A stretch of DNA of 64,000 bases from Rufibacter psychrotolerans (GTDB lineage Bacteria; Bacteroidota; Bacteroidia; Cytophagales; Hymenobacteraceae): positions 1 through 64,000 of the forward strand of contig NZ_JAFFJV010000007.1 of NCBI RefSeq assembly GCF_016924645.1, read 5' to 3'. Below the pieces are notes generated by a model that was not told the origin of the DNA, made no database searches, and saw nothing but the letters and a program-made list of their open reading frames with translations. Positions 41,303 to 57,313 of the stretch are shown one piece after another; position 1 is the stretch's first letter; each line of letters opens with the position of its first letter. The position numbers and the translations under genes are program-made.

Positions 41303-41346
41303 TGTGTACGTGCACAAATAATAATTTATTTAGCGTGTTCGAACAC
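41303..41346 (+). promoter_or_regulatory. Tandem operator-like palindromes of the kinase operon
   Basis: TGTGTACGTGCACA at 41303-41316 and GTGTTCGAACAC at 41335-41346. Their centres (between the C and G of the central CG) are 31 bp apart. The inner one is 22.5 bp before the -33 tetrad. The same arrangement occurs ahead of susC, and the core matches a LacI-type palindrome. Confidence 0.75.
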
Positions 41347-41362
41347 ATTTATGACGATTTTC

Positions 41363-41394
41363 TTTGTAATTCTACTTTTATGTTTTTATGTTTA
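41363..41394 (+). promoter_or_regulatory. Promoter of the nucleotidyltransferase-kinase-CBM9-GH109 operon
   Basis: TTTG at 41363-41366, 20-base spacer, TATGTTTA at 41387-41394, matching the Bacteroidota -33/-7 pattern. The predicted start near 41400 gives a leader of about 345 bases. Confidence 0.7.
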
Positions 41395-41545
41395 GATAAG
41401 AAATCAAATTTCTAGGTTTCTCCCTTCTGGTTACGCTTTTCTACTCCTGGTTGCTTATGGAAACACGAACCTATTCTACTCCTGCGCTGGAATTACATCC
41501 GGTCAGTCCTGATTTACCTGCCGAAGGAAACAAACGCGGGGCTCC

Positions 41546-41581
41546 CGTTCTTGCCTGTTTTCCCCAAAACAGCCCGAAAAC
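41546..41581. repeat. 36-bp palindromic element, copy 24
   Basis: C, GTTC, TTGCCTG, TTTT, CCCC, AAAA, CAGCCCG, AAAA, C, in the leader of the kinase operon, 164 bp before the start codon. Confidence 0.8.
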
Positions 41582-41659
41582 AGGTGAGCAGCCAGAAGCT
41601 ACGGTACCCATGGGTGACCCGAATAGAAGGCCATAGCAGCCTTAAAGTGGCGCACTGTC

Positions 41660-41676
41660 TAAGGCAGACGCACTTA
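41660..41676. repeat. Short repeat H, copy 1
   Basis: TAAGGCAGACGCACTTA; its complement shares TAAGTGCGTCTGC with 46221-46236, in opposite orientation. Confidence 0.4.
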
Positions 41677-41744
41677 GAACTCTTTAGGCCGGGCGGGAAA
41701 AGGCTTTTTCATAAAAGAAACTCAGACTAAGACTTCAGATTGCA

Positions 41745-42662
41745 ATGGAGATAAAACCAACGTTGCTGGTCCTGGCGGCCGGTATGGCTACCCGGTACGG
41801 CAGCCTGAAACAGATAGTGGCCTTTGGGCCTCACGGAGAAACCATCATTGACTATTCCATTTATGATGCCATCAAGGCGGGTTTCAAGAAGGTTGTTTTC
41901 ATCATCCGGAAGTCAATTGAAGCCGAGTTTAAAGCCGCCATGCAGGATAAGTTCAGCCGGGCAGTAGAAGTAGACTTTGTGCTGCAGGAACTGGATATAC
42001 TACCGGAAGGTTTTTCGGTGCCTCAGGACCGAGTGAAGCCCTGGGGAACCGCGCACGCCGTTTGGGTGGCTGCAGGTAAGCTCACAGAGCCTTTTGCGGT
42101 CATCAACGGCGACGATTTCTACGGTTACCAGTCTTTCCAGATCATGGCAGATTTTCTAAAAAGCGGGCAAGAATGCGGCTTGGTGGGGTATCTGCTGGCC
42201 AACACGCTGTCTGAGCACGGCGCGGTGTCAAGAGGCATCTGCGAAGTGGATGCAGCCGGGAACCTGGTGAGCATCACGGAGCAGACCCATATAGAGAAAA
42301 CCCAGGACGGCATTGTGGCCATTGGCCCAGATCAGCAACCCATTCCGCTGGCCCCAGACCAGATGGTGTCTATGAACCTCATGGGGTTTGCGCCTTCCTT
42401 GCTGCCTTACTTTGGTAAATACCTGGAAGAGTTCCTGCGGGAAAAGGCCCACTTGCCCAAGGCGGAATTCTTTCTGCCCCTAGTGTTGGATAAGTTGGTA
42501 AAAGAAGGTGCCACGCAGGTGAACGTGCTGCCTACCCCGGAGAAGTGGTTCGGGGTGACCTATCCCGCTGACAAGCCCTTGGTGGTGGAAGCCCTCAAAA
42601 AACTCATTGAGGCCGGTACCTACCCCCAAAATCTTTGGAACACCCCCGTTAACAGCAAATAA
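41745..42662 (+). CDS. Sugar-phosphate nucleotidyltransferase
   Basis: A 305-residue protein of the NTP-transferase family. The nucleotide-binding signature LVLAAGMATRYGSLKQ is at 8-23, and the acidic INGDDFYGYQSF near 123-134 holds the metal-binding Asp. It should couple a sugar 1-phosphate to an NTP, giving an NDP-sugar. Directly followed (1 bp gap) by a NahK-like kinase, which would make the sugar 1-phosphate; together they form a salvage pair. Which sugar and nucleotide are used is not clear from sequence. Confidence 0.87.
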   Translation: MEIKPTLLVLAAGMATRYGSLKQIVAFGPHGETIIDYSIYDAIKAGFKKVVFIIRKSIEAEFKAAMQDKFSRAVEVDFVLQELDILPEGFSVPQDRVKPWGTAHAVWVAAGKLTEPFAVINGDDFYGYQSFQIMADFLKSGQECGLVGYLLANTLSEHGAVSRGICEVDAAGNLVSITEQTHIEKTQDGIVAIGPDQQPIPLAPDQMVSMNLMGFAPSLLPYFGKYLEEFLREKAHLPKAEFFLPLVLDKLVKEGATQVNVLPTPEKWFGVTYPADKPLVVEALKKLIEAGTYPQNLWNTPVNSK

Positions 42663-42663
42663 G

Positions 42664-43812
42664 ATGGTACAAACAGCAGGACAAGACGCTACGTTATCGT
42701 TCATCGTTTCCCGGTTCAACCTGCAAGGGACCGCCGCCTCCATTGTGCCGCACGGCTCGGGGCATATACATGACACCTACCATGTGGCAAATGCCCAGCC
42801 CGACTGTCCGGATTATCTGTTGCAGCGGGTGAACCACCACGTTTTCAAGAATGTGCCGGCCCTCATGGAGAACATCCATGTGGTGACCACGCATTTGCGC
42901 CAAAAACTGGAAAACACCTCAGAAACCCAACCTTCGGCAGAAGTGCTTACCCTCATTCCTACCCAAGACCAGAAATGGTTTTACCAGGATGAACAGGGCA
43001 ATTACTGGCGCATGTACTATTTCCTGTACGGCACCATGAGCTATGACTTGGTGAGCACCCCGCAGCAAGCCTACGAAGGCGGCAAGGCGTTTGGCCGTTT
43101 CCAGGCGCTGTTGGCCGATTTACCCGTGGACCTGCTGCACGATACCATCCCTAATTTCCACAACGTAGTAAACCGGCTACGGCTTTTCAGGGAGGCCGTA
43201 GCCAAAGATGCGGTGGGACGGGTGCGCGAAACCGGGCCCGAGATAGCGTTTGTGGAAGAGAAAGCCGAAGCCATGAGCGCCATTTACCACCTGGGCGAAC
43301 GCGGTGAGCTGCCCTTGCGCATCACGCACAATGATACCAAATTCAACAACGTCTTATTAGACCAAACCGGCAAAGCCCAGTGCGTGATAGACCTGGATAC
43401 GGTCATGCCCGGCTACGTGGCCTATGATTTCGGGGATGCGATCAGGACCACGGTTAACACCGCTCCCGAGGATGAGCCGCAGTTGGAGAAGATTCAGGTA
43501 GACGTTTCGCTGTTTGAAGGATTTGCCAAAGGGTTCTTAGAGGAAACCAGCAGTTCATTGACGGACCAAGAAATCGCCTCGCTCATACACGGCGTGCTGC
43601 TGCTGCCTTTTATCATGGGCCTACGGTTCCTGACCGATTACCTGGAGGGCGACCATTACTATAAAATCCACTTCCCAGAGCATAACCTGCAACGCTGCCG
43701 GGCGCAGTTTCAGTTGGTACGGCAGCTGGAGGCGAAGCTTCCGCAGTTCCAGGAAATCATTGAGCGGGTGGTGCAGGAAACCCGCCTGACAGAAATCGAC
43801 TCAAAAGCCTGA
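42664..43812 (+). CDS. Phosphotransferase, N-acetylhexosamine 1-kinase (NahK)-like
   Basis: A 382-residue kinase of the APH fold. The start is the ATG at 42664, right after the previous stop; an ATG at 42607 inside the upstream gene would add 19 residues. Catalytic loop ITHNDTKFNNVLLD near 238-251 (Asp as base, Asn as metal ligand) and the metal-binding VIDLDTVMPGYVAYDFGDA near 259-277 are present. NahK enzymes phosphorylate GlcNAc or GalNAc at C1; the pairing with a nucleotidyltransferase and with a GH109 enzyme two genes on supports an amino-sugar role, but other hexoses cannot be ruled out. Confidence 0.83.
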   Translation: MVQTAGQDATLSFIVSRFNLQGTAASIVPHGSGHIHDTYHVANAQPDCPDYLLQRVNHHVFKNVPALMENIHVVTTHLRQKLENTSETQPSAEVLTLIPTQDQKWFYQDEQGNYWRMYYFLYGTMSYDLVSTPQQAYEGGKAFGRFQALLADLPVDLLHDTIPNFHNVVNRLRLFREAVAKDAVGRVRETGPEIAFVEEKAEAMSAIYHLGERGELPLRITHNDTKFNNVLLDQTGKAQCVIDLDTVMPGYVAYDFGDAIRTTVNTAPEDEPQLEKIQVDVSLFEGFAKGFLEETSSSLTDQEIASLIHGVLLLPFIMGLRFLTDYLEGDHYYKIHFPEHNLQRCRAQFQLVRQLEAKLPQFQEIIERVVQETRLTEIDSKA

Positions 43813-43819
43813 AAGCGCC

Positions 43820-44473
43820 ATGAAACAGCTGGAAGTGCCGTATTTGCCTTTGCTCCAGAAAGACACGCCCTTACCCGACGTGTCTGAGCAGTTGGATAGA
43901 TTGGAGAAAAACGCCATTGATGCCGTGCCGTGGCCCTCTTACAACTACAAACCCCGGGTGTCTTTCTCGGTGGCCCACAGCAAGGACTGTCTGTTTGTGA
44001 AGTTCTATGTGGAGGAGGAGGCCATCAGGGCGGTGTTCCGCCGCACCAATGACCCGGTGTACAAAGACAGTTGCGTGGAGCTTTTCATTGCCTTCAACCA
44101 GGAGAAGGCCTACTACAATCTGGAGTTCAATAGCCTTGGTTCCTGCTTGATGGCTTACGGCCCGGAAAGAGAAAACCGCCAGTTTCTCTCAGAGGCGGTA
44201 ATCAGAGAGATAAAGCGGTATGCCCAGATGACGGTGGGCGAGGCCGCCCCTTCAGACACCCCGGTAAAATGGGAACTGACACTGGTGATACCCGAGGAGG
44301 TGTTCTGCTTCCATCGGTTTGGGTCTTCTTTGCATGAGCAGCAGTGCCGGGTGAACTTTTATAAATGCGGCGATGATCTGCCCACCCCGCATTACCTCAC
44401 CTGGAACCGCATCTGGGCTGCTGCCCCAGATTTCCACTTGCCAGAGTACTTCGGCGAATTACAGTTCCTATAG
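43820..44473 (+). CDS. CBM9-like carbohydrate-binding protein
   Basis: A 217-residue beta-sandwich protein of the carbohydrate-binding family 9-like group, as found in many Bacteroidota sugar operons. Marks: FSVAHSKDCLFVKFYVEEE near 50-68 (pattern of DOMON/CBM9 strands), DSCVELFIAF near 86-95, YYNLEFNSLGSC near 101-112, and the C-terminal NFYKCGDDLPTPHYLTWNRI. No signal peptide is evident, so location is uncertain. It starts 7 bp after the kinase stop in the same operon. Confidence 0.85.
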   Translation: MKQLEVPYLPLLQKDTPLPDVSEQLDRLEKNAIDAVPWPSYNYKPRVSFSVAHSKDCLFVKFYVEEEAIRAVFRRTNDPVYKDSCVELFIAFNQEKAYYNLEFNSLGSCLMAYGPERENRQFLSEAVIREIKRYAQMTVGEAAPSDTPVKWELTLVIPEEVFCFHRFGSSLHEQQCRVNFYKCGDDLPTPHYLTWNRIWAAAPDFHLPEYFGELQFL

Positions 44474-44504
44474 CGGGCTTCTGCGCCAGGTGGCAGTTTG
44501 TTGC

Positions 44505-44540
44505 GTTTTAGGGCTACTTTAGGGAAGACAGGCCCAAAAC
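44505..44540. repeat. 36-bp palindromic element, copy 25
   Basis: GTTTT, AGGGCTA, CTTT, AGGG, AAGA, CAGGCCC, AAAA, C, 32 bp past the CBM9-like stop, inside the likely operon before the GH109 gene. Confidence 0.8.
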
Positions 44541-44654
44541 GGTGGGGGAGTCCTCCGCCCGTGAGCATCCTGCAAGGCTAGGCACAAACAATTCTGCCGC
44601 TTTTCTTACTTCTGAACCACGTTTTGCTCTTTCACCCCATAAAGAAACACATCT

Positions 44655-46094
44655 ATGAGTACTAACAGGAGAGACTTTTTGAAGTTAGCCGGTCTGGCGG
44701 GCGTAGGACTGGCCAGTACAGGTTTTGTGAGCGGCTGTGCCTCCTCGGCAGCCGCAACCTCGCTTGACCAGATTCAGGCGCAGGCTAAAAAAACGCACCG
44801 GCAGCACTTCAACATGAGCGGGTATGCCGCTCCCCGCCTGGACAAAGTGCGGGTAGGTTATATTGGGCTAGGCATGCGCGGTCCGGCCTCGGTGGTCCGG
44901 ATGAACCATATTGATGGGGTGGAGATCAATGCCTTGTGTGACATAAGACCAGACAGGGTTGCCGCTACCTTAAAGAAGATAGAGGGCTCCAGCCATAAAC
45001 CAACCACCTATTCAGGTAAGGAAGACGCTTGGAAGGAGCTGTGCAACCGCAATGACATTGACCTGGTGTACATTGCCACGCCCTGGCACCTGCACACGCC
45101 CATGGCCGTGTACGCCATGGAGCACGGCAAACACGTGGCCGTGGAAGTGCCCGCCGCGAAAACCTTGGAGGAATGCTGGCAGTTGGTAGAAACCTCTGAG
45201 CGCACCAAAAAGCACTGCATGATGCTGGAGAACTGCTGCTATGATTTTTTTGAGATGCTCACTTTAAACATGGCCCGGCAAGGATTCTTTGGGGAGATTG
45301 TGCACGGCGAGGGGGCCTACATCCATAATCTAATAGACTTGAATTTTGCCAAGACCAGCGATACTGAGGAAGCCTATTACAACATGTGGCGCCTGAAAGA
45401 GAACGGGCGCAACGGAAGCTTGTATCCTACGCACGGTTTGGGTCCCATCTGCCAGGTGATGGACATTAACCGGGGCGACCAGATGGATTACCTGGTATCT
45501 GTCTCCTCCAATGATTTCAACATGGGCGCCAAGGCGAAGGAACTGGCCTCTAAAGACAACTTCTACCAGGATTTCGCGCAGATGAATTTTCGGGGGAACA
45601 TGAATACCACCACCATCCGCACTAAAAAGGGCCGCACCATTATGATTCAGCACGATGTGTCCTCGCCGCGACCTTACTCCCGTATTCACCTGGTCAGTGG
45701 TTCCAAAGCCATGGCCCAGAAGTGGCCAGATCCGGCTCGCATTGCTACCGGGCACGATTGGCTGTCCAAAGAGGAATTCGCCAAAATTGAAGAACAATAC
45801 ACCCCGCCTCTTACCAAGAAGCTAGGCGAAATGGCTAGGAAAATTGGCGGGCACGGCGGCATGGATTTCTTGATGGAATGGCGTCTGGTAGATTGCCTGC
45901 GCAACGGTCTACCCTTGGATCAGGACGTATACGATGCCGCCCTGTGGAGCGCCGTAGCTCCGTTGAGCGAGTGGTCAGTTGCCAACCGTTCTAACTCCAT
46001 TGACGTGCCTGATTTCACCGTGGGGGCTTGGCAGCATAACAAACCGGTAGAGCTAACCTTGCAAGGCGGCGGTACTACTAACGTGAAGGCGTAG
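44655..46094 (+). CDS. GH109 family glycosidase (alpha-N-acetylgalactosaminidase type), Tat-exported
   Basis: A 479-residue enzyme with the Gfo/Idh/MocA fold. The N terminus has a twin-arginine motif (NRRDFLK) and a lipobox-like SGC at C28, so it is exported folded with its cofactor and may be a lipoprotein. NAD-binding GYIGLGMRGPASVV lies near 68-82; the region ATPWHLHTPMAVYAMEHGKH and AVEVPAAKTLEECW (near 138-170) and the motif YPTHGLGPICQVMDINRGD (near 256-274) are typical of GH109. These enzymes remove alpha-linked GalNAc by an NAD-dependent redox mechanism. Last gene of the kinase operon; substrate within this PUL is not proven. Confidence 0.88.
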   Translation: MSTNRRDFLKLAGLAGVGLASTGFVSGCASSAAATSLDQIQAQAKKTHRQHFNMSGYAAPRLDKVRVGYIGLGMRGPASVVRMNHIDGVEINALCDIRPDRVAATLKKIEGSSHKPTTYSGKEDAWKELCNRNDIDLVYIATPWHLHTPMAVYAMEHGKHVAVEVPAAKTLEECWQLVETSERTKKHCMMLENCCYDFFEMLTLNMARQGFFGEIVHGEGAYIHNLIDLNFAKTSDTEEAYYNMWRLKENGRNGSLYPTHGLGPICQVMDINRGDQMDYLVSVSSNDFNMGAKAKELASKDNFYQDFAQMNFRGNMNTTTIRTKKGRTIMIQHDVSSPRPYSRIHLVSGSKAMAQKWPDPARIATGHDWLSKEEFAKIEEQYTPPLTKKLGEMARKIGGHGGMDFLMEWRLVDCLRNGLPLDQDVYDAALWSAVAPLSEWSVANRSNSIDVPDFTVGAWQHNKPVELTLQGGGTTNVKA

Positions 46095-46110
46095 CAAACA
46101 TTTAAGGCCG

Positions 46111-46176
46111 ATAAAGCCCGATGCCGTTTCGGGGCAGTTTTCGTAAAAACTGCCCCGAAACGGCATCGGGCTTTAT
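46111..46176 (+). terminator. 66-bp palindromic terminator of the GH109 operon
   Basis: Outer stem ATAAAGCCCGATGCC and complement enclose a fully paired 36-bp element; 17 bp past the GH109 stop. Confidence 0.88.
46126..46161. repeat. 36-bp palindromic element, copy 26
   Basis: GTTTC, GGGGCAG, TTTT, CGTA, AAAA, CTGCCCC, GAAA, C: a symmetric copy at the core of the terminator. Confidence 0.9.
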
Positions 46177-46220
46177 GTTGAATATGAACCCTGAAATTGA
46201 AGGATGCTGTTAAGCACCGC

Positions 46221-46236
46221 TAAGTGCGTCTGCTTA
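46221..46236. repeat. Short repeat H, copy 2
   Basis: TAAGTGCGTCTGCTTA, an inverted match to 41660-41676. Confidence 0.4.
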
Positions 46237-46241
46237 CCGCA

Positions 46242-46399
46242 GATTCTCCCCTCAGGAGGAGCGTAGGGGTGTTTACCCTGAAGAGCACGCATTCCAGCGC
46301 ACCTATATTACTTTCCAGATATTGGTCAAAGTGGTTGTTCAGCAATTCGCAGACCGGCAGGTGTAGACACCCCTCTGCGCTCCCCTCAAGGGGAGAATC
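46242..46399. repeat. Inverted repeat G
   Basis: Arms GATTCTCCCCTCAGGAGGAG... (46242-46272) and its near-complement ending AGGGGAGAATC (46367-46399), about 31-33 bp each, around a 94-base middle. The outer arm ends resemble the C/G hairpin at the window start. Confidence 0.7.
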
Positions 46400-46463
46400 T
46401 TGGTTGAAGCGTATTTTCAGGTAGTCGCTGAGACTATTCACCCCCAATAACAGAGGCTGTTAC

Positions 46464-46499
46464 GTTTTTGGCCTGATTTCTTCAAAACAGCCCCAAAAC
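46464..46499. repeat. 36-bp palindromic element, copy 27
   Basis: GTTTT, TGGCCTG, ATTT, CTTC, AAAA, CAGCCCC, AAAA, C, 11 bp beyond the minus-strand DUF4832 stop. Confidence 0.85.
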
Positions 46500-46510
46500 G
46501 AAACATGCGC

Positions 46511-48052
46511 TTAATTTACCTTGATGGTATGATTCAAGCGGTTATAGCCGGTGTTCTCTTCCCAGACATCGTTGTTGGCAAACCTGATGCTGTACTCAGG
46601 ACGTTTGGCGAGGCTCTCGTAGCCATCTGGCAGATGAAGCAGCACATCGTACTCGCCTTTCTGCAGGTTAGAGGGCAAGGGGATTTCCTCTGAAACGGTG
46701 ATCTGGCCCGGAAACCATCTCCTGATTTCTGTACTTAAGGGCAGCGCATACGTTTGCCCCGATTTCTTATGCCGCAACACCACCTGCACGGAACGTGGGT
46801 TGAAGGGAGCGGCGAAACCTACGTTTTCCAGCTGTAGAGCAATTGGCAACGAACTTCCTTTTCTAACCTTTTCCGGTAAAGAGGCTGATTTCAAGGTGAA
46901 CCGGTAGCCTAACCGGCGCTTGATGTTGTCCATGCAGCCGCCGGTTACCCAGTCATTATTCACTTGGTTGTTGTAAGAACTATTGAGATAGCTGTAGTGC
47001 ATAGCGGCCATTTCCTGCTCGGCGCGTCCGGCGGGAGCACAATCGTTTTGGGGACTATAGGCGTTGTCGCAGGTTTCGCCGCCTACGGCAACGTACTTGC
47101 TTTCGGCTTCAAAGTATTTACGGAGCGTTTCGTTGGCTGGACCCCGTTTAGTGGAAGAGTTGCCGTAGTCATAGAAAGTACCGTAATCATCCTCGCTGGC
47201 CAGGAAGCAGTCATTGTGCAAGCCTACCCGCGCACGGTCTGCGTTGGTAAATGCTTCCTGCTCCGTGATAGCCGCCGAGGTCACCGGAGCTTTGGGGCCG
47301 TACACAAACCGTTGCTTGATCTGGGGCGTTCTTACCTGCACCATGCGGTCCTGAGGCAAAGCATCCAGCAAGGCTTTCAGCATGTCGTTGCGGTCTTGCC
47401 AACTGCTGTCTGCCACTACGCCCAGGCCGTTGGTAGAGGCATCCCCGAAATAATCTGTAAAGTAATTCTCGCCCCAGATGCCAATAAAGCCTTGTTGCAG
47501 TACGGCAATGACATCGGCGTTCTTTTGGAAAACCGGTTTCAGCTGAGAGATATGCTGCAGCACAACGGCTTTGGGCGCATCGCCGTATGGTGGGCAGATT
47601 TTGTAGTCGTCTTTGCAGTCACCGGCTTTGGTGTCATTGGTGTACGCAAACCGCAGAATCATTTTCATGCCTGCGGCTCTGGTAGCGTCAAAATCTTTCT
47701 GCAGGTTTTCCAGGAATTCGGGGCTGAGCGGCTTGTTCTTAAAATCAGCGAGCAGGTAGCCGCGGTACACCAACGAGAGCTTGGCCGAGTACTTGGCGCT
47801 GTTGGTAATGTTCTGGTTGGCCGGCAGGGTTCTCAGTTTCACCAGTTCCTCTGCGGAGAGTGTTCCGGGTTTGCCGCCGGCGGCCAGGTAAAAGCCTCGC
47901 TCAGGGTTGGCGAAATCCTCTGAGCTCTCCATGTAGGTGATTTTCCTGGTTTGGGCAAGAAGCGTGGGCGGGGTGGTTAGCTGCGCCGTAAGCAAGAAAC
48001 ACAGCGTAGCAATGCTTTTCCAGAGGGACGGGGGAGTAGAGTGTAAGGCCAT
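46511..48052 (-). CDS. DUF4874/DUF4832 protein 1 (putative glycan-active enzyme)
   Basis: A 513-residue exported protein with an N-terminal hydrophobic signal (about 12-34, ending LLAQT). The DUF4874 part spans about 35-300 and the DUF4832 beta-sandwich about 320-513. Conserved marks shared with the paralogue at 49.1-50.5 kb are NPERGFY at 49-55, RFAYT at 134-138, QGFIGIWGENY around E195, VRTP near 265 and LHNDCF near 296. The acid in GxWGE is placed as in a TIM-barrel glycosidase, but no activity is established. It is the last gene of the susC-led operon on the minus strand. Confidence 0.8.
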   Translation of the reverse strand: MALHSTPPSLWKSIATLCFLLTAQLTTPPTLLAQTRKITYMESSEDFANPERGFYLAAGGKPGTLSAEELVKLRTLPANQNITNSAKYSAKLSLVYRGYLLADFKNKPLSPEFLENLQKDFDATRAAGMKMILRFAYTNDTKAGDCKDDYKICPPYGDAPKAVVLQHISQLKPVFQKNADVIAVLQQGFIGIWGENYFTDYFGDASTNGLGVVADSSWQDRNDMLKALLDALPQDRMVQVRTPQIKQRFVYGPKAPVTSAAITEQEAFTNADRARVGLHNDCFLASEDDYGTFYDYGNSSTKRGPANETLRKYFEAESKYVAVGGETCDNAYSPQNDCAPAGRAEQEMAAMHYSYLNSSYNNQVNNDWVTGGCMDNIKRRLGYRFTLKSASLPEKVRKGSSLPIALQLENVGFAAPFNPRSVQVVLRHKKSGQTYALPLSTEIRRWFPGQITVSEEIPLPSNLQKGEYDVLLHLPDGYESLAKRPEYSIRFANNDVWEENTGYNRLNHTIKVN

Positions 48053-48126
48053 GAAGCGGGGGAGTTGGGTGGAACAAAACGAACGAAGCGCTGGGCGTCA
48101 GCCCTGGAGCTGGCGGACACAACCAG

Positions 48127-48162
48127 GATTTGGGCCTGTTTTCCAGAAAACAGGCCCAAATC
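48127..48162. repeat. 36-bp palindromic element, copy 28
   Basis: G, ATTT, GGGCCTG, TTTT, CCAG, AAAA, CAGGCCC, AAAT, C: a perfectly symmetric copy, 14 bp beyond the PKD gene stop and 75 bp before the next gene start on the same strand. It could attenuate transcription into the last gene. Confidence 0.9.
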
Positions 48163-48176
48163 CCAATCAGGGCAGA

Positions 48177-49025
48177 TTATAGGTCAATGGAGGCAAACTT
48201 AGAGCTGGCCTGCTGGCTATGAGGAATGTTGCCCACCTCGGTCCAGCCGGAGTTCATTTCCAGGATGGCGAAATTGGCGGCATTCCTCATGCTACCCAAA
48301 CCTTCGCGCTTGATGGAGAACTCCACCACTTTTTTGCCGCCCACGGTTTTGATGGCCGAGAACTGCATGCGCTCGCCAAAGTTGGCTACCTCGTTCCAGG
48401 ACCAGCCATTGCCGGGACCCACGTGCGCAAAGACACTGCCTCCAGTGGGGTTGCCTTCAAAGAGGAAATCGGCGCCTGAAGCAGCTGGGTACATCCAGGT
48501 TTTAAATCCGGTTTCGGGGTTGTTGTCGGCATCCAGGTACAAGTCCATTACTGCCAGCGAGAAGTCCTGGGTACCTTCCAGGTAGAAGTTGAGGTGCCCG
48601 GCAGAGGCAAAAGTTTTCACAGCCAACAGGGTGCCGCCGGTGCCCTCGTTATTGGTATGGGTGTAGGAAACGTGCTCCCAATCGGTGAAATCGCCGTCAA
48701 TTTTGATGTTAGGACCCAGCACATACACAGAGTCCTGGAAGGTGCTGGTCTGGCCATTGCTCTTCACTGTGAGGGTAACCAGGTAGTCGCCTTTCTTGGA
48801 ATAGATGTGCGTGGGGTTGGACTGAAAAGACTGCTCACTCTCGTCACCGAAGTCCCAGAGGTATTCAGAGGCGTTTTGCGAGAAATCAGTAAAATTGACC
48901 ACAAAACCATCGGCCACGTAACTGAACACCGCTTTAGGTCCTGAATTTTCGTCGTCTTCCTCGCAGGAGAAAGTGGCCAGCAGCAAAAAGCCCAAGCCCA
49001 AGAAGAGTAAAAGTTTGTTTTTCAT
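48177..49025 (-). CDS. PKD-domain lipoprotein, SusE/F-position glycan-binding protein
   Basis: A 282-residue lipoprotein (signal peptide with ATFSC, Cys21). A PKD domain covers about 28-105 (pattern VNFTDFSQNASEYLWDFGDE), followed by a beta-sandwich of CBM9/DOMON type from about 108 (IKIDGDFTDWEHVSY) to the end. Its place after susC-susD fits the SusE/SusF role of a surface glycan-binding protein. The ligand is unknown. Confidence 0.82.
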   Translation of the reverse strand: MKNKLLLFLGLGFLLLATFSCEEDDENSGPKAVFSYVADGFVVNFTDFSQNASEYLWDFGDESEQSFQSNPTHIYSKKGDYLVTLTVKSNGQTSTFQDSVYVLGPNIKIDGDFTDWEHVSYTHTNNEGTGGTLLAVKTFASAGHLNFYLEGTQDFSLAVMDLYLDADNNPETGFKTWMYPAASGADFLFEGNPTGGSVFAHVGPGNGWSWNEVANFGERMQFSAIKTVGGKKVVEFSIKREGLGSMRNAANFAILEMNSGWTEVGNIPHSQQASSKFASIDL

Positions 49026-49075
49026 GTCGCTGATGCTTTAAAAGTTCGATTCTATTTGCCGTAGCGGGAGCCTGC

Positions 49076-50455
49076 CTAGAGATTCCCGATGGTTACCTGG
49101 TGCTTGAGGTTGTTGAGGCCGGTTTCCGCTTCCCACGTTTGGGGATTCGCCAGCCGGATGCTGTACTCGGGTCGGTTTTGCAACGCTTCTGCCCGGTCAG
49201 CAATCTTGAGGTACAGGTCATAATTGCCTGCCGGAATGCCCGTTAAGCTCACGCTTTGGTCAATGGTAAGGTTGGTGCCCGGCTTGCACGCGCGAACATC
49301 AACGGGGAGCGGTACTTGGTGGAGAGCGCCGGAGGCCTTATTTCTGAGCACCAGAAAGGTATTCTTTTGCTTGTAGACCGGCGCGTACCCTTTATTGGTG
49401 AGATTGATTTTTACCTGATAAGCTTGGTTGAGCCCCACCTGAGTGGCTAACGTGGCATCTACCAAAGCTAACCGGTACCCCAGATTTCGCTGGAATTCGT
49501 CAAAACAGCCCGAATTCCGCCAGGCGTTGAGGGTAGGCTGGTAATAGTCCAGGTTCAGGTAGGTCCACTTCAGAAGCTGCATCTCGGTGCGGCCCTCGGG
49601 GCAGGTAGGATTGTAGCCGTTCTGCGGAGGGCAGGTTTCTCCACCGGTGGGCACGTACAGGGCTTCGTTGCTGATGTAGTTTTTCTCTGGCTGAATGTTG
49701 GTGTAGGTACCGTAATTGGTGCCGCCAGACATGAAACAGTCGTTGTGATGGCCTACCCGGGCAATTTTCTCCGCAGAATACGCCATTGCCTGGCTCAGGG
49801 GCGTGGTGGTGCCAAAGATCTGCTGCTTTTTAGTAGGAGTCCTTACCTGCACCATCAACTCGGTGGGCAGCACGTCCAACAGTTTGAACAGCACCTTTCT
49901 TTCGTTTTCGGTGGTGTTGAGGCCGTTGGTAGACCCGTGCCACTCGCCCCAGGCCCCAATGAAGCCGGCCTGCACAAAGGCGATGATGTCTTTGTTGGCT
50001 TCAAAGGCAGGTTTCAACTGATCCAAGTGCTGCTCAATGATGGCCAGTGGAGCATCGGTGCCGTTCATCTGGTCGGTGTAGGCAAACCGGAGCACGCATT
50101 TAAGGCCGGCCTGCCTGATCAAGTCCATGTCGGTCTGGAAGAGGGTAAGCTGGGCGGCACTGAGCGGAGCGTCTTTGAACTTCTCCAGGTAATAGACTCG
50201 GTGGACGAGGGTGATGTTGTTATTCTTGAGAGAACCGAGTGTAGTAACGTTTAACGGGGCTCCTTCTGAATAAACCGAGAACAGGCGCATGAAACCTCTT
50301 TCCGGATTGGGGAAGATCTCGTTAGACGCGGCATAGGTGATGTTGGGCTTGGTTTCCGGCGTTGGGTCTGATTCTTCCTTGCTGCCAGAGCAACCAGAAA
50401 AACACCCAAGCAGGAAATGTAAGGCTAGTACCGTAAGCATGTTTCTTCCTCTCAT
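49076..50455 (-). CDS. DUF4874/DUF4832 protein 2, lipoprotein
   Basis: A 459-residue protein from the ATG at 50455 (MRGRNMLTVLALHFLLGC); an upstream ATG at 50515 adds residues without signal character, and an ATG at 50440 is also possible. The lipobox LLGC gives a lipid-modified Cys18. It shares with the paralogue NPERGF (50-55), RFAYT, QAGFIGAWGEWHG (E171), VRTP and HHNDCF. The two proteins are similar in layout but clearly diverged. Located directly before the PKD gene, downstream of susD, so probably a cell-surface component of the PUL. Confidence 0.8.
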   Translation of the reverse strand: MRGRNMLTVLALHFLLGCFSGCSGSKEESDPTPETKPNITYAASNEIFPNPERGFMRLFSVYSEGAPLNVTTLGSLKNNNITLVHRVYYLEKFKDAPLSAAQLTLFQTDMDLIRQAGLKCVLRFAYTDQMNGTDAPLAIIEQHLDQLKPAFEANKDIIAFVQAGFIGAWGEWHGSTNGLNTTENERKVLFKLLDVLPTELMVQVRTPTKKQQIFGTTTPLSQAMAYSAEKIARVGHHNDCFMSGGTNYGTYTNIQPEKNYISNEALYVPTGGETCPPQNGYNPTCPEGRTEMQLLKWTYLNLDYYQPTLNAWRNSGCFDEFQRNLGYRLALVDATLATQVGLNQAYQVKINLTNKGYAPVYKQKNTFLVLRNKASGALHQVPLPVDVRACKPGTNLTIDQSVSLTGIPAGNYDLYLKIADRAEALQNRPEYSIRLANPQTWEAETGLNNLKHQVTIGNL

Positions 50456-50542
50456 TGCGTCAAATTCACTTAATTGATTTTTTTTGAAGTAAGGGTAGCA
50501 GCCGCTTTCAGCCAAGGGCCGGGAAGCAGTGCTTTGGGCTAA

Positions 50543-50586
50543 ACTTCGGGGGAGAACCCGGTAAAGCTGGTTTCTCCCCGAAGGGT
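50543..50586 (-). terminator. Hairpin directly after susD
   Basis: Minus-strand CTTCGGGGAGAAACC ... GGGTTCTCCCCCGAAG, 3 bases past the susD stop. With no long T-run it is more likely an RNA-stabilising or attenuating hairpin separating high susCD from lower downstream expression. Confidence 0.65.
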
Positions 50587-50588
50587 TG

Positions 50589-52052
50589 TTAATTGTACCC
50601 TTTGTTCTGAATGAATTTCCCTTTGCCTTCGCTCACGGTTCTCAAGGAGAACGGATAAAGTACTTTGTCCTCATTGGTGTAGACAGAGCCTTTCACCTCC
50701 CGGGCCCGCTCCACGAACTTGCCGTGGCGGATAAGGTCGGCGCGGTACTGGCCGTTCTCGCACCAGAACTCATGGCTTCTCTCTGTTAGGATGAGGTCAT
50801 TGAAGGCCGCCAGCGAACTGTAGTCTGCCAAGTCTTTGTCCGGCAGATCAGCCCTTCTTCTGATGACGTTGACCAGTTCCATGGCTTCGGCAGTTGGGGC
50901 ACCGGTGGCGTTTGCCAAGGCTTCAGCCTTTGACAGCAGCACATCGGCGTAGCGGTACATGATGATGTCAACGGTAGAGACGGCGGTGGTTCTGTTAGCG
51001 TCTGGGTTCATCTTCAGTGGAATAGGGCCCAGGTTCATGACCGTACCCGGGTTAGCCCGGTTGTAAGTGTTGCCATCTGTGCCGGTGTATTCGGCAATCA
51101 GCATGGTTTTCCGCTCATCATTTTCTTCAAATGTGTCATAGAACCACCAGGTGCTTTGGATGGTGCCCCAACCGCCTTTTACCGGATAGTTAGACGGCAG
51201 CACCATCAATTGCCACTGGTTTTCACTGGTGCCTTCGTAGTCGCACGGAACGGCCCAGATCACCTCGCGGCTGTTCTTGGCGCCTTCCAGATCCCACATG
51301 CTCTCGTAGTCCTGGGTAAGGGTGTAGTAGTTATAGCCGATGATATCATTCGCCAGTTCCACTACCCTGTTCCACTTCTTCTCGTGCAGGTTGAGCCGTA
51401 TTTGCACCATTTTCGCTAAACCTTTGCTAAAACGGCCGTATTCTGCCTGGGCAGGGTGGGGCAGATCTTCGGCCGCGGCTACCAGATCGGCCTCAATGAA
51501 GGCCACCGTTTCCTCGTGTGACAGGCGGGCCAGGGGCACTTCTTCCATTGGTTTCTGCAATACTTCCAGCGGGGCAATCACCAGGGGGCCGTACATGTCA
51601 AACAGCTCGTAGGCGAGCAAGCCACGGGCGCACCTGATCTCAGCGATGGCTTTCTTCTTCACCGCCTCGCTCACCTCTGATTTGGTGATCAGGTCAATGG
51701 TGAGCGTCATCAGGCTGATTTTGTTGTAGAAAACATCATAGAAACGGGTAATGCCCGCATCGGTGGGTTTGTAGTTGTGGAGGGAGGCCGCCAGCTGAGG
51801 ACCGTAGGAACCGTTCAGGATCTCAGTGGTGGCATCGTTGATGTACATGATGCCGTTCTCAGAGGTGGTATGAATGCCGTCGCCCCACGAGCCACGCAGA
51901 GGATAGTAGCAGGCGTTTACCATGGCCTCTACGTCTGCCTCAGACTGCGGGAAAATGCTGGGGTTTATCTCAGAATAATCAATGGACTCTAAATCATCTG
52001 TGCAACCGCCCAGCAGGAAGAGTAGTGCAAGAGAAAGAAATACTTTGCGCAT
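50589..52052 (-). CDS. susD: RagB/SusD family outer-membrane nutrient-binding lipoprotein
   Basis: A 487-residue lipoprotein from the ATG at 52052 (MRKVFLSLALLFLLGGCTDD, Cys17); an ATG at 52082 overlaps the susC stop and adds 10 residues. TPR-rich SusD core with family marks ARGLLAYELFDMYGP near 140-154 and the C-terminal RSHEFWCENGQYRADLIRHGK. It forms the lid of the SusC transporter and binds the glycan on the cell surface. 29 bp downstream of susC. Confidence 0.93.
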   Translation of the reverse strand: MRKVFLSLALLFLLGGCTDDLESIDYSEINPSIFPQSEADVEAMVNACYYPLRGSWGDGIHTTSENGIMYINDATTEILNGSYGPQLAASLHNYKPTDAGITRFYDVFYNKISLMTLTIDLITKSEVSEAVKKKAIAEIRCARGLLAYELFDMYGPLVIAPLEVLQKPMEEVPLARLSHEETVAFIEADLVAAAEDLPHPAQAEYGRFSKGLAKMVQIRLNLHEKKWNRVVELANDIIGYNYYTLTQDYESMWDLEGAKNSREVIWAVPCDYEGTSENQWQLMVLPSNYPVKGGWGTIQSTWWFYDTFEENDERKTMLIAEYTGTDGNTYNRANPGTVMNLGPIPLKMNPDANRTTAVSTVDIIMYRYADVLLSKAEALANATGAPTAEAMELVNVIRRRADLPDKDLADYSSLAAFNDLILTERSHEFWCENGQYRADLIRHGKFVERAREVKGSVYTNEDKVLYPFSLRTVSEGKGKFIQNKGYN

Positions 52053-52081
52053 GGTCTTATAAATTAATGGGTGCTGGTTCA

Positions 52082-55000
52082 TTAGAAAGTCAGGTTAATG
52101 CCGGTGGTGAACGTTTTTACATTGGGGTAAGCCGCTGTGTAGGCATCGGTCTCGGGATCAATGCCCTCATAAGGCGTGATCACGAACAGGTTTTGAGCGG
52201 TCACGTGGATGGAGGCTCTGGAGAACACTTTGCCGGTCCACTTGGTAGGCAGGGTATAGGCCAGCGCAACGTTCTGCAACCGGACAAACCAGGCATCCTG
52301 CAGGAAGAAATCGCCTACGCTGTACGGAGACCAGCCATAAAAGGAGCTGGGCTGGGTAGTGGATGGATTTTCCGGAGTCCAGCGGTTCTTCACGGTGCGT
52401 AAGGCATTGTACCCGTAGGTGTAAATACCATCTGCGCTGATGCCGTAGGTGGTGTAGTTAGGATCGGCCATTTTACGCCCGAACATGCCATTGAAGTCAA
52501 AGTTGAGGGTGAAGCCTTTGTAGGTGAAGATGTTGGTCATGCCCACAATCAGGCTGGGGTCTGAGGTCCCGATGAGTCTGGTATCGGCGTCATCAATGAT
52601 TCCGTCTGGGGCGCCGGTGCGCAGGAAACGGCCATTCTCGTCTACCATGGGGTTGCCGTTGGCGTCGCGCTGGTAGCCGTTGATGTCTTTGATCTTGATC
52701 ATGCCGGGTCTCAATTCTGGCTGAGAAGGCACCTCTTCGCCCACCTGCATGATACCGTCTGCTACCCGCGCGTAAATGGCTCTGATAGGATCATTGACGT
52801 TCTCGTACACGGCAGGCTTCCAGTCTGGGGCTCTTTCTTTCCAGGTGTCTTTGAACCTTGAGAACGTGAAGATGGATCTCCACTCAAAGTCATTGCGCTG
52901 GAAGTTGCGGGTGCTTACGGTCAATTCAAAGCCTTTGCTCTGAGTCTTGCCCACGTTGGCCATGATGGTGTTGATGGGGTGGTAGGAGTTGATGGGTTTG
53001 AAGGCCAGCAGGTCTGAAATTACCCGGTTGTACACCTCCAAGGAGCCGTCTATGCGCCCGTTAAAGAGCGAGAAGTCCAGACCAAAGTTGGCCTCAGTGG
53101 TGGTTTCCCATTTCAGATCAGGGTTTTCCAGGCGGGATAGGGATACCCCGATCTCTCTGGTGTCATTACCCGAAAGCCAGGCGGGGTAAGCATAGTAGGC
53201 CGCGAAGGCGTTGCTGCCAATAGAGGCGTTCCCGGTTTGACCATAACTGGCTCTCAGTTTAAACTGCGAGACGGTGTTAGCCAGGCCCCCGAAGAACGGC
53301 TCCTCGGCTATGTTCCAGCCCACGGCTACCGACGGAAAAGTACCCCACTTGTTGTTTCGGGCAAACACGCTGGCCCCATCGGTCCGCACGGTCAGGGTGA
53401 GCAGGTACCGGTCTTTCAGGGTGTAGTTCAAGCGTCCAAAGTAGGAGGCCATTACATTTTCTGAGCGGGAAGAGCCCACGGTTTTGGTGCTGCTGCCAGC
53501 CCCTAGGTTGTTCCACAGGAAAGCGTCTGAGATAAAGTTGGTGTTGCCAACGTTAGTAAAGTCATTGTAGAAATTCTGCTGCGAGGCACCGGCCAATAGG
53601 TTAATGCGGTGGTGGGTAGCAATCGTCTTGACATAGGAGGCAGTTGCCTCCATCAGGTATTCGTTTTTATCAATCTCGGCAATGGAAGCCCGGCCAAATT
53701 CCAGTGCTCCGTGGATGGTGGTTTTGGGAAGATAATTCCAGCGCTTGGTGATGCCGCGGTCCATGCCTCCTTTCAACCGGATGGTGAGGTCTGGGATGGG
53801 AATAATGTCTATAAATGAGTTGAGCAACATGCGCTCAATGCGGCCTTCATCTGAAATGGTGAGCAGGGAGTACGGATTAGGCTGCAGAGCCAGGAGCGGG
53901 TTTACGGGGTAGTTGCCGTTCTCATCAATGGGTTTGATGTGCGGCCCCATCTGCATGGCGGCCCGAATGATGCCTGAGTTCTCAAATTGATCACCTCCTA
54001 GCTGGCTGTTGTCATTATTGATGCGGCTGGCCGTAAGGTTCAGGCCGAACTTGATGTATTTGTTTACGTCCTGGTCTACATTGGCCCGTACAGTAAACCT
54101 TTCAATGCCGGAGTTTTTGATGACTCCGTTGTGCTTGTAGTAATTACCCGAAAGCAGGAACTTGGTAGATTCTGTGCCGCCCGTCAAGGATAGGTTGTGC
54201 TGCTGAATGGAGCCATCACGGGTTACCAAACCAATCCAGTCGGTGCCCCGGCCCACGTTATTGATGGCGTTTTGGGTGTATAATCGGCGAAACGGCCCAT
54301 TAATAGGATCGGCCTGGGCTTCCTCCAAGGTTCTATTACCATAAGGAATCACGTTGTTGTCAAAGTTCCAGCGCTCCCAGGCAGCTTCGTTGCGCACCTG
54401 CATCCACTCGTTCAGGGGCAATACATCAAAAGGATTGTTGTATTTCTGAATGGAAAAGGTATTGGAGTATTGCACCTCGGCTTTGCCGGTTTTTCCTCTT
54501 TTGGTGGTGATGAGAATAACCCCATTGGCGGCCCGTGCGCCATAGATAGAGGTGGCGCTGGCGTCTTTGAGTACCTCAATGGACTCAATGTCATTGGGGT
54601 TGAAGGAGTTCAGGATGCTCTGGGTGCCGGCTTGGTAGCGTCCGCCGCTCCCGGGTTGCTGTAAATCTGAGATGGGGAAGCCGTCTACTACAATCAGAGG
54701 AGCGTTGCTGGCGTTGATGGAACCGGCACCCCGAATCAGAATGTCAAGTCCGCCACCGGGTTGGGCACTGTTCTCCCGGATCATTAAACCGGCCGCTTTG
54801 CCCTTTAGCATGTGCCCGATAGACGCAGCACCGGAGTTCACCACCAAGTCTTCTGCTTTCACAGAACTGATGGCTCCGGTTAAGTCCCTTTTCTTCTGGG
54901 TGCCGTAGCCCACCACCACTACCTCATCCAGGGCTTTTCTATCCTGAGCCATCTGCACATTCAGGGTAGATTCATTGCTGACCGCCACTTCCTGTGACAG

Positions 55001-55246
55001 CAAACCAATAAAGGAGAACACCAGCGTTGCCCCTGAAGGGGGTACCTGTATGCTGAAAGCACCGTTCGTGTCGGTGGTGGTTCCGGTGGTGGTGCCTTTT
55101 ACCACTACGCTAACACCGGTTAAGGCCTGGCCGTCTTCTTTAGCCGTAACGGTACCCGTCACCGTGCGGCCCTGGGCGGCGGCTTGCAGCACCGGGAGAA
55201 GCACCAGTAGCGTTAGCTTCAGAAATGTGTGTACCAATTTTTTCAT
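52082..55246 (-). CDS. susC: SusC/RagA family TonB-dependent outer-membrane transporter
   Basis: A 1,054-residue protein from the ATG at 55246, where a signal peptide begins (MKKLVHTFLKLTLLVLLPVL); the longer frame to 55441 is leader sequence. A carboxypeptidase-regulatory-like domain follows at about 28-100, then DEVVVVGYGTQKKRDLTGAI (SusC signature at the plug start, about 110-130), the plug with IRGAGSINASNAPLIVVDG, IYGARAANGVILITTKRGK, and a beta barrel to the C-terminal TFTTGINLTF. It imports glycan fragments using TonB energy. First gene of the minus-strand PUL operon. Confidence 0.95.
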   Translation of the reverse strand: MKKLVHTFLKLTLLVLLPVLQAAAQGRTVTGTVTAKEDGQALTGVSVVVKGTTTGTTTDTNGAFSIQVPPSGATLVFSFIGLLSQEVAVSNESTLNVQMAQDRKALDEVVVVGYGTQKKRDLTGAISSVKAEDLVVNSGAASIGHMLKGKAAGLMIRENSAQPGGGLDILIRGAGSINASNAPLIVVDGFPISDLQQPGSGGRYQAGTQSILNSFNPNDIESIEVLKDASATSIYGARAANGVILITTKRGKTGKAEVQYSNTFSIQKYNNPFDVLPLNEWMQVRNEAAWERWNFDNNVIPYGNRTLEEAQADPINGPFRRLYTQNAINNVGRGTDWIGLVTRDGSIQQHNLSLTGGTESTKFLLSGNYYKHNGVIKNSGIERFTVRANVDQDVNKYIKFGLNLTASRINNDNSQLGGDQFENSGIIRAAMQMGPHIKPIDENGNYPVNPLLALQPNPYSLLTISDEGRIERMLLNSFIDIIPIPDLTIRLKGGMDRGITKRWNYLPKTTIHGALEFGRASIAEIDKNEYLMEATASYVKTIATHHRINLLAGASQQNFYNDFTNVGNTNFISDAFLWNNLGAGSSTKTVGSSRSENVMASYFGRLNYTLKDRYLLTLTVRTDGASVFARNNKWGTFPSVAVGWNIAEEPFFGGLANTVSQFKLRASYGQTGNASIGSNAFAAYYAYPAWLSGNDTREIGVSLSRLENPDLKWETTTEANFGLDFSLFNGRIDGSLEVYNRVISDLLAFKPINSYHPINTIMANVGKTQSKGFELTVSTRNFQRNDFEWRSIFTFSRFKDTWKERAPDWKPAVYENVNDPIRAIYARVADGIMQVGEEVPSQPELRPGMIKIKDINGYQRDANGNPMVDENGRFLRTGAPDGIIDDADTRLIGTSDPSLIVGMTNIFTYKGFTLNFDFNGMFGRKMADPNYTTYGISADGIYTYGYNALRTVKNRWTPENPSTTQPSSFYGWSPYSVGDFFLQDAWFVRLQNVALAYTLPTKWTGKVFSRASIHVTAQNLFVITPYEGIDPETDAYTAAYPNVKTFTTGINLTF

Positions 55247-55750
55247 GTAGATGCAGTTTATTGGGTGAGGTGTGGGCAAAACGGAATGAGGTATAGGGAA
55301 AACTCCTCCTGAAAAAAAAGATAGGAAGGAGTTGCTCTGAGAGAAAAGCAGGTATTGCCAGCTTGTTACGGTAGTGGCCTGGCCCGTAATTGGGGGCATA
55401 GATACGGGAGACTGGCCGTAGTCAGGAAGGAACAGGCACATTGGTGTGCCTGAACAGAGACAAAGGGCTGCAATTTGGTTCCATAGAGGTCTGTTTGTTA
55501 AGTATCACTCTGGTTGTGTTGTAAGCGCAGAATATGTCTCAGACGGGTGGCCAGCTGCAAAGTAAATAGAGCCGGCGCCTGTCTTGGATAATGGTTAGGG
55601 AGCCAGGCCGCATATTTAGGGCCAACTCCGCCACGGAACGGTACTTCTTTCTCCAACCTGCCCTCTGGCCCTTGCTGTGCAGCGGTAAGACGGGCATCTC
55701 CTGGCTGCATAGCTACCTCTCTTTTGTGGAGATTTCTTGTCTCGGTGTAT
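55247..55750. other. Long leader of the susC operon
   Basis: About 500 bases lie between the predicted transcription start (near 55744) and the susC ATG. A 70-codon minus-strand frame (55498-55710) starts 34 bases after the predicted start but has no protein character I recognise. No riboswitch was identified. Confidence 0.5.
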
Positions 55751-55782
55751 TAAACATAGCTACTATAAATTAGATAAGCAAG
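55751..55782 (-). promoter_or_regulatory. Promoter of the susC operon
   Basis: On the minus strand, CTTG (55782-55779), 20-base spacer, TATGTTTA (55758-55751). The -7 box is identical to that of the kinase operon and the spacer is the same length. Confidence 0.7.
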
Positions 55783-55797
55783 AAGTTTTAGGTAAAA

Positions 55798-55843
55798 TGT
55801 GTTCGTAGACGCAAAGATTTTTCCTATATGTGTTCGAACACAT
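55798..55843. promoter_or_regulatory. Tandem operator-like palindromes between susC and the DUF5009 gene
   Basis: ATGTGTTCGAACACAT at 55828-55843 (perfect) and TGTGTTCGTAGACGCA at 55798-55813 (weak), centres 31 bp apart. The weak one is 22.5 bp from the susC -33 tetrad. The pair also precedes the candidate promoter of the DUF5009 gene on the plus strand. Confidence 0.75.
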
Positions 55844-56050: not shown

Positions 56051-56133
56051 AGATGGCAAATCCTTCTTATACCACTCGCAACTCTTCGGTTAAGCATGCC
56101 CCAACGGTAACCGGGGTAACAGACGCATTTCCT

Positions 56134-57234: not shown

Positions 57235-57299
57235 GAGATAAGGGAAAAGAGGTCTGGCATTTCGTGTGAGAGGCAAGCGGATTGTTGGTAATTGGTATA

Positions 57300-57313
57300 T
57301 TTGTTCGTACACA
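57300..57313 (+). promoter_or_regulatory. Single operator-like palindrome before lacI
   Basis: TTTGTTCGTACACA, a variant of the core seen at 41.3 and 55.8 kb, 130 bp before the regulator start. It suggests autoregulation. Confidence 0.5.

Follow-up and report, generated by a model that had tools for sequence, protein, structure and literature searches.

The window, a 64 000-nucleotide stretch of a Rufibacter psychrotolerans contig, contains adjacent susC and susD genes, which mark a SusCD-type polysaccharide utilization locus, together with an operon on the opposite strand (operon 1) and a gene for a LacI-family regulator. The genes of the locus are arranged as follows.

41457–41668, plus strand: remnants of a nagB-type gene (blastn against the Rufibacter relative L030)
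41745–42662, plus strand: nucleotidyltransferase (PF00483), the first intact gene of operon 1
42607–43812, plus strand: APH-type kinase (PF01636); the true start may be later, at about 42661
43820–44473, plus strand: CBM9_2 protein, operon 1
44655–46094, plus strand: GH109-type protein (PF21252 and PF01408), operon 1
46511–50515, minus strand: two proteins of the DUF4874/DUF4832 type and one with a PKD domain, downstream of susCD
50589–52082, minus strand: SusD (PF07980, PF14322)
52082–55441, minus strand: SusC (TIGR04056, 867 bits against a cut-off of 368)
57443–58513, plus strand: LacI-family regulator (PF00356 and PF13407, above cut-off), the proposed binder

An earlier note on this DNA had described operon 1 as a kinase operon; the kinase is present, but as the second gene, and the operon begins with the nucleotidyltransferase. 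DUF4832 genes adjoin Pel clusters in streptococci and clostridia, according to excerpts of PMC7112168, and this proximity is too little for the glycan to be named from the DUF4832/DUF4874 proteins. No HTCS or SusR gene was found among the 20 open reading frames (ORFs) between 28813 and 62531 that were scanned for domains. A 393-residue protein with no Pfam match is encoded at 56053–57234, divergent from susC, and its gene also adjoins lacI in five Rufibacter relatives (L030–L034).

The upstream regions of operon 1 and susC each contain two putative operators and a promoter of the −33/−7 type.

41303–41316, plus strand: outer (distal) putative operator of operon 1, TGTGTACGTGCACA, a CG-centred palindrome
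41334–41347, plus strand: inner (proximal) putative operator of operon 1, CGTGTTCGAACACA, with core GTGTTCGAACAC
41363–41366, plus strand: −33 element TTTG of operon 1, from the sequence and the alignment of relatives
41387–41394, plus strand: −7 element TATGTTTA of operon 1, the same in seven Rufibacter nag/NTP promoters
55829–55842, minus strand: outer putative operator of susC, a perfect TGTGTTCGAACACA
55798–55811, minus strand: inner, weaker putative operator of susC, CGTCTACGAACACA
55779–55782, minus strand: −33 element CTTG of susC, from the sequence and the alignment of relatives
55751–55758, minus strand: −7 element TATGTTTA of susC, from the sequence and the alignment of relatives

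Both promoters (operon 1, 41303–41394, plus strand; susC, 55843–55751, minus strand) have the order inner site, 16 nt, TTG, 20 nt and TATGTTTA. The geometry that had been reported for them is base-exact: CG-centred palindromes with centres 31 bp apart precede operon 1 and susC, the inner centre lies 22.5 bp from the −33 tetrad in both cases, and a 20-base spacer leads to the same −7 box. With the tetrad numbered −36 to −33, the site centres fall at −58.5 (inner) and −89.5 (outer); the predicted sites are thus all upstream of −33 and the core promoter of either target is free of operators. A distance of 31 bp corresponds to 2.95 turns at 10.5 bp per turn, so that two bound dimers would lie on the same side of the DNA, and the spacing strongly supports the proposed binding of two dimers on one face.

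In the relatives, the outer and inner sites of operon 1 are separated by 31 bp in six of seven cases and by 30 bp in the seventh (L036, genome G001). The conservation of the nag/NTP promoter was compared among seven Rufibacter sequences, L036 being left out. The 16 nt that separate the inner site from TTG form its least conserved part (61%), with a length that is constant in all seven. Similarly, the spacers of the operon 1 and susC promoters agree in length and differ in sequence. The note had further described one site of each pair as strong and the other as weak, in reversed order at the two promoters; the reversal is real, but its size depends on how mismatches are counted. With mismatches counted over the whole of TGTGTTCGAACACA, the nag/NTP promoter has the better match in its inner site in 7/7 Rufibacter genomes, and susC has it in the outer site in five of six, with one tie. 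When the two letters beside the CG are disregarded, the inner site of the nag/NTP promoter is better in four of seven, with three ties that include the window, and the outer site of susC is better in 6/6. The conserved reversal may give the two promoters different induction thresholds.

In the window species a nagB-type gene has been deleted between the promoter and operon 1, whereas it is kept in close relatives. Its leader and start region can be aligned as far as 41478 and a 3′ remnant is found at 41591–41668 (72% over 78 bp); L030 has an intact nagB-type ORF at the corresponding place. The interval between the operator pair and the nucleotidyltransferase gene is ∼2.1 kb in L030–L034, and it contains a nagB-type ORF in L030 and L031, the two loci in which the ORFs were read, that of L031 being a nagB–PIG-L fusion (PRK02122, 1034 bits). 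The gene is not universal in Rufibacter, since this interval is only 71–530 bp in four more distant loci (L035, L036, L207 and L208). A nagB-type copy with 59% identity is located elsewhere in the R. psychrotolerans genome. Behind the pair, nagB-like ORFs also occur in four Hymenobacter regions (as read from the ORFs alone) and in Rhodocytophaga (domain-scanned).

The protein encoded at 57443 combines a LacI helix–turn–helix with a sugar-binding domain, and palindromic CG-centred operators are linked to its gene, as is characteristic of the LacI/GalR family. Although 19 models of named NCBIfam LacI subfamilies (RbsR, CcpA, Cra, GalR and others) match, all are below cut-off, and the best of them, RbsR, reaches 64.1 of the required 382 bits. 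Two solved structures are related at E ≤ 1e-20, the closest being 3gbv, a putative LacI-family regulator that covers the part after the DNA-binding domain; neither revealed a ligand. The genes behind the operator pairs in this and related genomes comprise a nagB–PIG-L fusion, GH20, susC, an NTP transferase with a kinase, and a ROK-family protein. LacI probably has an amino sugar or a derivative of one as its ligand, because nagB-type, GH20 and susC genes are among these targets.

Matches to TGTGTTCGAACACA with at most two mismatches occur at seven places in the window's own genome (5.18 Mb), whereas the reversed control matches at three. The present locus accounts for three of the seven, including both places with 0–1 mismatch. 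Within the window, six matches were found at up to three mismatches, against a shuffle mean of 2.29 (one of 100 shuffles reached six). A scan of this genome for 31-bp pairs, which the note had suggested, returned only two at up to two mismatches, both in the locus, while the reversed control gave none at up to two mismatches and one at up to three. LacI relatives (E ≤ 1e-40) were identified in 11 of 16 Rufibacter genomes, the window's own included. At up to three mismatches, a pair is present in 10/11 genomes with LacI (in G001 only at three mismatches and on one strand) and in 1/5 without it (G013, on one strand). Weak single matches are uninformative at this level, as the reversed control matches 8/16 Rufibacter genomes, and since the genus search at three mismatches is noisy, the conclusions rest on at most two. 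Under this limit the pair is found in 9/11 Rufibacter genomes with LacI and in 0/5 without, with the control in one.

The association extends through the family. LacI (E ≤ 1e-100) is present in 68 of 204 genomes, and 31-bp pairs with up to two mismatches are present in 38, namely in 38/68 with LacI and in 0/136 without (Fisher p = 6e-23, a value that ignores shared ancestry; all genome counts given here treat related genomes as independent, though they are kin). The reversed control has a 31-bp pair in a single genome of the 204 (G009), and the same pattern at a spacing of 36 bp occurs in none. All 58 pair places are on the LacI contig, 44 of them no more than 6 kb and 55 no more than 20 kb away from lacI. 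Of the 30 LacI-bearing genomes that have no 31-bp pair at up to two mismatches, 18 are Pontibacter, and another genome with LacI and no 31-bp pair is that of the Rufibacter G015. The operator core differs with the LacI clade, being GTGTTCGAACAC in Rufibacter and GTGTGCGCACAC in Hymenobacter. When the residues of the recognition and hinge helices are compared with the operators by eye, their covariation is suggestive. The occurrence of pairs solely in LacI-bearing genomes, and always on the LacI contig, strongly supports the nomination of the 57443 protein as the regulator, and we consider it very probable that this protein binds the paired operators.

The spacing of the sites was surveyed in 57 LacI regions (the window, L030–L045 and L087–L126; the more distant paralogues L046–L049 were left out), with a pass rule of at most four summed mismatches and a distance of 12–80. 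Of the 44 pairs obtained, some of which share one site in two registers (e.g. L123 and L125), 32 have a spacing of exactly 31 bp, and the other 12 are spaced at 21, 30, 32, 33 or 34 bp. Nine arm-permuted control motifs gave between zero and four pairs each, none at 31 bp. A separation of about 21–22 or 31–32 bp is that of tandem-operator LacI regulons, and the 32/44 pairs at 31 bp conform to it.

The position of the pairs relative to the promoter is equally constant. A slot was defined as a TTG 14–18 nt from the inner site, followed by N19–20 and at least five of the six letters of TAnnTTTG; these limits were set after the data had been seen, and an open search of gaps of 0–74 nt from the site, which served as a check, placed 45 of 46 promoter matches at a gap of 13–19. 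For the 30–32-bp pairs in 44 regions without Pontibacter, a promoter occupies the slot on exactly one side in 43/43 cases, against 1.07% in shuffles. Four of the loci (L136, L137, L142 and L161) were added after they had been seen to fit, and without them the result is 39/39; the non-fitting L177 and L186 are outside the 43 pairs. The set used for the open search left out 11 loci (L132, L135, L145, L147, L149, L150, L152, L154, L155, L160 and L164) of Hymenobacter, Adhaeribacter or Rufibacter that resemble records in the other set; eight of these have 30–33-bp pairs, all of which fit the slot. Most Hymenobacter pairs have a core promoter with 6/6 letters of TAnnTTTG, i.e. near consensus, and ten of 15 strong unpaired sites are in the inner slot. 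The geometry highlighted in the note is therefore not a product of chance, as judged from the 36-bp control, the permuted motifs and the shuffles together with the co-occurrence with LacI.

Loosening the summed mismatches to 5–6 added five pairs, of which three are in the slot and two (genomes G007 and G009) have a gap of 7. These two (L207:9512–9556 and L208:8564–8608) are from Rufibacter with a more distant LacI. Each precedes a large gene of the susC type and is 9 bp nearer to −33, or about one turn; the gene in L207 encodes a TonB-plug, susC-type protein according to a domain scan. In Pontibacter, a site precedes the nucleotidyltransferase gene in 11/18 regions, mostly with no recognisable outer site; all 11 are in the slot (gap 14–16, N20, TAnnTTTA), and two of them have a second site 21 bp away. 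In the Rufibacter G015 a site likewise precedes the nucleotidyltransferase gene, and it is outside the slot. More distant LacI homologues often have pairs spaced at 21 or 23 bp: among their 20–24-bp pairs a promoter is found at a gap of 14–17 in 10/19 and none is in the slot in 9/19, and among their 30–33-bp pairs four of six fit the slot, the exceptions being L177 and L186. The LacI homologues of Flavobacterium (L198:7887–10398 and L206:7887–10319) have pairs 23 bp apart. In L198 one large gene and one of the GHMP/galactokinase type follow such pairs, and the promoters occupy a comparable slot.

Slot promoters on both sides, as would suit regulation of the divergent neighbours (the SDR gene at 40282 and the gene at 56053), were seen in 0/43 pairs. 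The susC pair of the window has a weaker divergent promoter candidate just outside the slot (gap 19, CATCTTTG), on account of which such regulation may still occur. A further site is located before the regulator gene itself.

57300–57313, plus strand: single operator-like site before lacI, overlapping a conserved TATATTTG box at 57296–57303

This site is outside the promoter slot. The TATATTTG box is present in 6/6 aligned sequences, while the operator-like site is found in the window species and is absent from the five relatives aligned. Autorepression of lacI through this site was consequently rejected as a conserved, general feature; a recent gain of autorepression in the window species is possible.

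These observations lead us to propose, with a probability of about 0.6, that LacI would sense an amino sugar or its derivative and occupy the paired operators of operon 1 and susC with two dimers, at about −58.5 and −89.5 on one face of the DNA. By contacting RNA polymerase on the TTG-N20-TATGTTTA promoter, it would activate both operons. Import by SusCD and cytoplasmic amino-sugar processing would then be switched on together, because LacI would activate both operons. Activation, which we infer from the site position, is the somewhat likelier sign, since the sites stay clear of the core promoter, at a fixed distance from it, as upstream CcpA sites do; an operator upstream of the core promoter, as found here, is the arrangement of activators of the CcpA, Cra and MdxR type. 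Position by itself leaves the sign open, as excerpts of PMC4693257 describe GalR at −60.5 as a repressor of P1 and an activator of P2, and core promoters near consensus do not demand an activator.

The most serious alternative, which we regard as unlikely, is that the same LacI dimers at −58.5/−89.5 hold RNA polymerase inactive until the sugar releases them; it would leave the geometry unchanged and reverse the sign alone. The near-consensus core promoters would suit such contact repression, GalR at −60.5 is described as repressing P1 by contacting RNA polymerase on the same face (PMC4693257), and LacI-family proteins are called repressors more often than activators ('repressor' occurs 26 times and 'activator' three times in PMC4052901, a crude indicator). 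Against it stand the activation of P2 by the same GalR from −60.5, the usually activating effect of upstream CcpA sites, for which the excerpted text of PMC4591507 names the levanase operon as an exception, and core promoters that are free of operators at both targets.

That another regulator binds the pairs and lacI is a mere neighbour is very improbable. The 30 of 68 LacI-bearing genomes lacking a 31-bp pair at up to two mismatches would be easier to understand in this way, but the pairs are found in none of the 136 genomes without LacI, every one of the 58 pair places shares a contig with lacI and each LacI clade has its own version of the operator core, as seen for Rufibacter and Hymenobacter. 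CG-centred palindromes are, moreover, a typical fit for LacI proteins. Still less probable is that LacI displaces or traps another activator upstream, as CytR does with CRP (excerpts of PMC3454398); despite this precedent, no second conserved motif was seen by eye in the gap, the segment of lowest conservation. Coincidence, or duplicated promoter DNA of no regulatory meaning, has a negligible chance and was rejected: the noisy reversed control at three mismatches (8/16 Rufibacter genomes) is outweighed by 31-bp pairs in 38/204 genomes against 0/204 at 36 bp, by the permuted motifs and shuffles and by promoter spacers that agree in length and differ in sequence.

Activation by paired LacI dimers may reach beyond this locus. 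We tentatively suggest, at slightly less than even odds, a Bacteroidota-wide class of LacI-family activators of sugar loci that would contact RNA polymerase from one fixed place, with an inner operator ending 14–18 nt before the −33 TTG and an outer one lying another two or three turns upstream of it. The promoter module is rigid enough to be detected by pattern only, which would permit regulon prediction in many genomes, and activation of the unusual −33/−7 promoters of Bacteroidota by LacI proteins could be cleanly tested on it. Through this module, import and amino-sugar processing seem to come under the joint control of a soluble LacI-type sensor. In G004 (L035:2259–2303) the same pair precedes a susC that is only 33% identical in a 453-residue segment, as though a different uptake operon had been placed behind the switch. 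If the proposal is true, exchange of operons behind the module would rewire which glycan genes answer to the sensor.

In the open-access papers searched, we found no description of this regulator or of a fixed operator-to-promoter geometry. NagR is the LacI-type regulator of GlcNAc genes in proteobacteria, and only some of the present targets (nagB type and GH20) resemble its own. The best-known controls of sugar-uptake loci in Bacteroidota are the HTCS, SusR and sigma/anti-sigma systems. HTCS and SusR-like regulators of Bacteroides also use paired tandem sites spaced by full helical turns, on average 21 bp for HTCS and 67 or 77 for SusR-like proteins, but in the excerpts of PMC3878776 these are direct repeats bound by other protein families, and the LacI regulators of B. 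theta that this source lists control uronate pathways. A novel LacI regulator of Bacteroidota, UxuR2 of Algoriphagus marincola, likewise has loci that include a GH109-family gene; it differs in serving the hexuronate pathway, and the excerpted account describes no operator geometry (PMC5507952).

LacI-family activators are known from other phyla, including MdxR of Enterococcus faecium (PMC3737153), Cra (named as such in PMC4052901) and CcpA, which acts from upstream cre sites (PMC4591507), and upstream LacI/GalR sites have been interpreted as activator sites in Clostridium phytofermentans and at pta/ackA of B. subtilis (PMC5171806). MdxR, CcpA and Cra likewise raise transcription (CcpA from upstream sites), but a conserved 31-bp pair at Bacteroidota sugar-uptake promoters is not among the features described in the excerpts of these accounts. 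The GalR dimer at −60.5 of galP1/P2 is near the present inner site (−58.5); that system differs in its operator at +53.5 and in looping, with no second operator 31 bp upstream described in the excerpted text (PMC4693257). Tandem operators of LacI-family regulators show intersite peaks at 13, 22 and 32 bp, of which those at 22 and 32 bp were read as cooperative binding of two dimers, and RafR and ScrR have double sites only, at 21–22 bp (Ravcheev et al., 2014; PMC4052901). Both tandem sites of LacI proteins and activators from this family are thus already known, and the fixed promoter geometry is the part that we did not find described. As excerpted, the survey of Ravcheev et al. (2014) covered one Bacteroides group and measured how far sites are from each other and from the start codon rather than from promoter elements, whereas what is constant in the present pairs is their position relative to −33 and −7.
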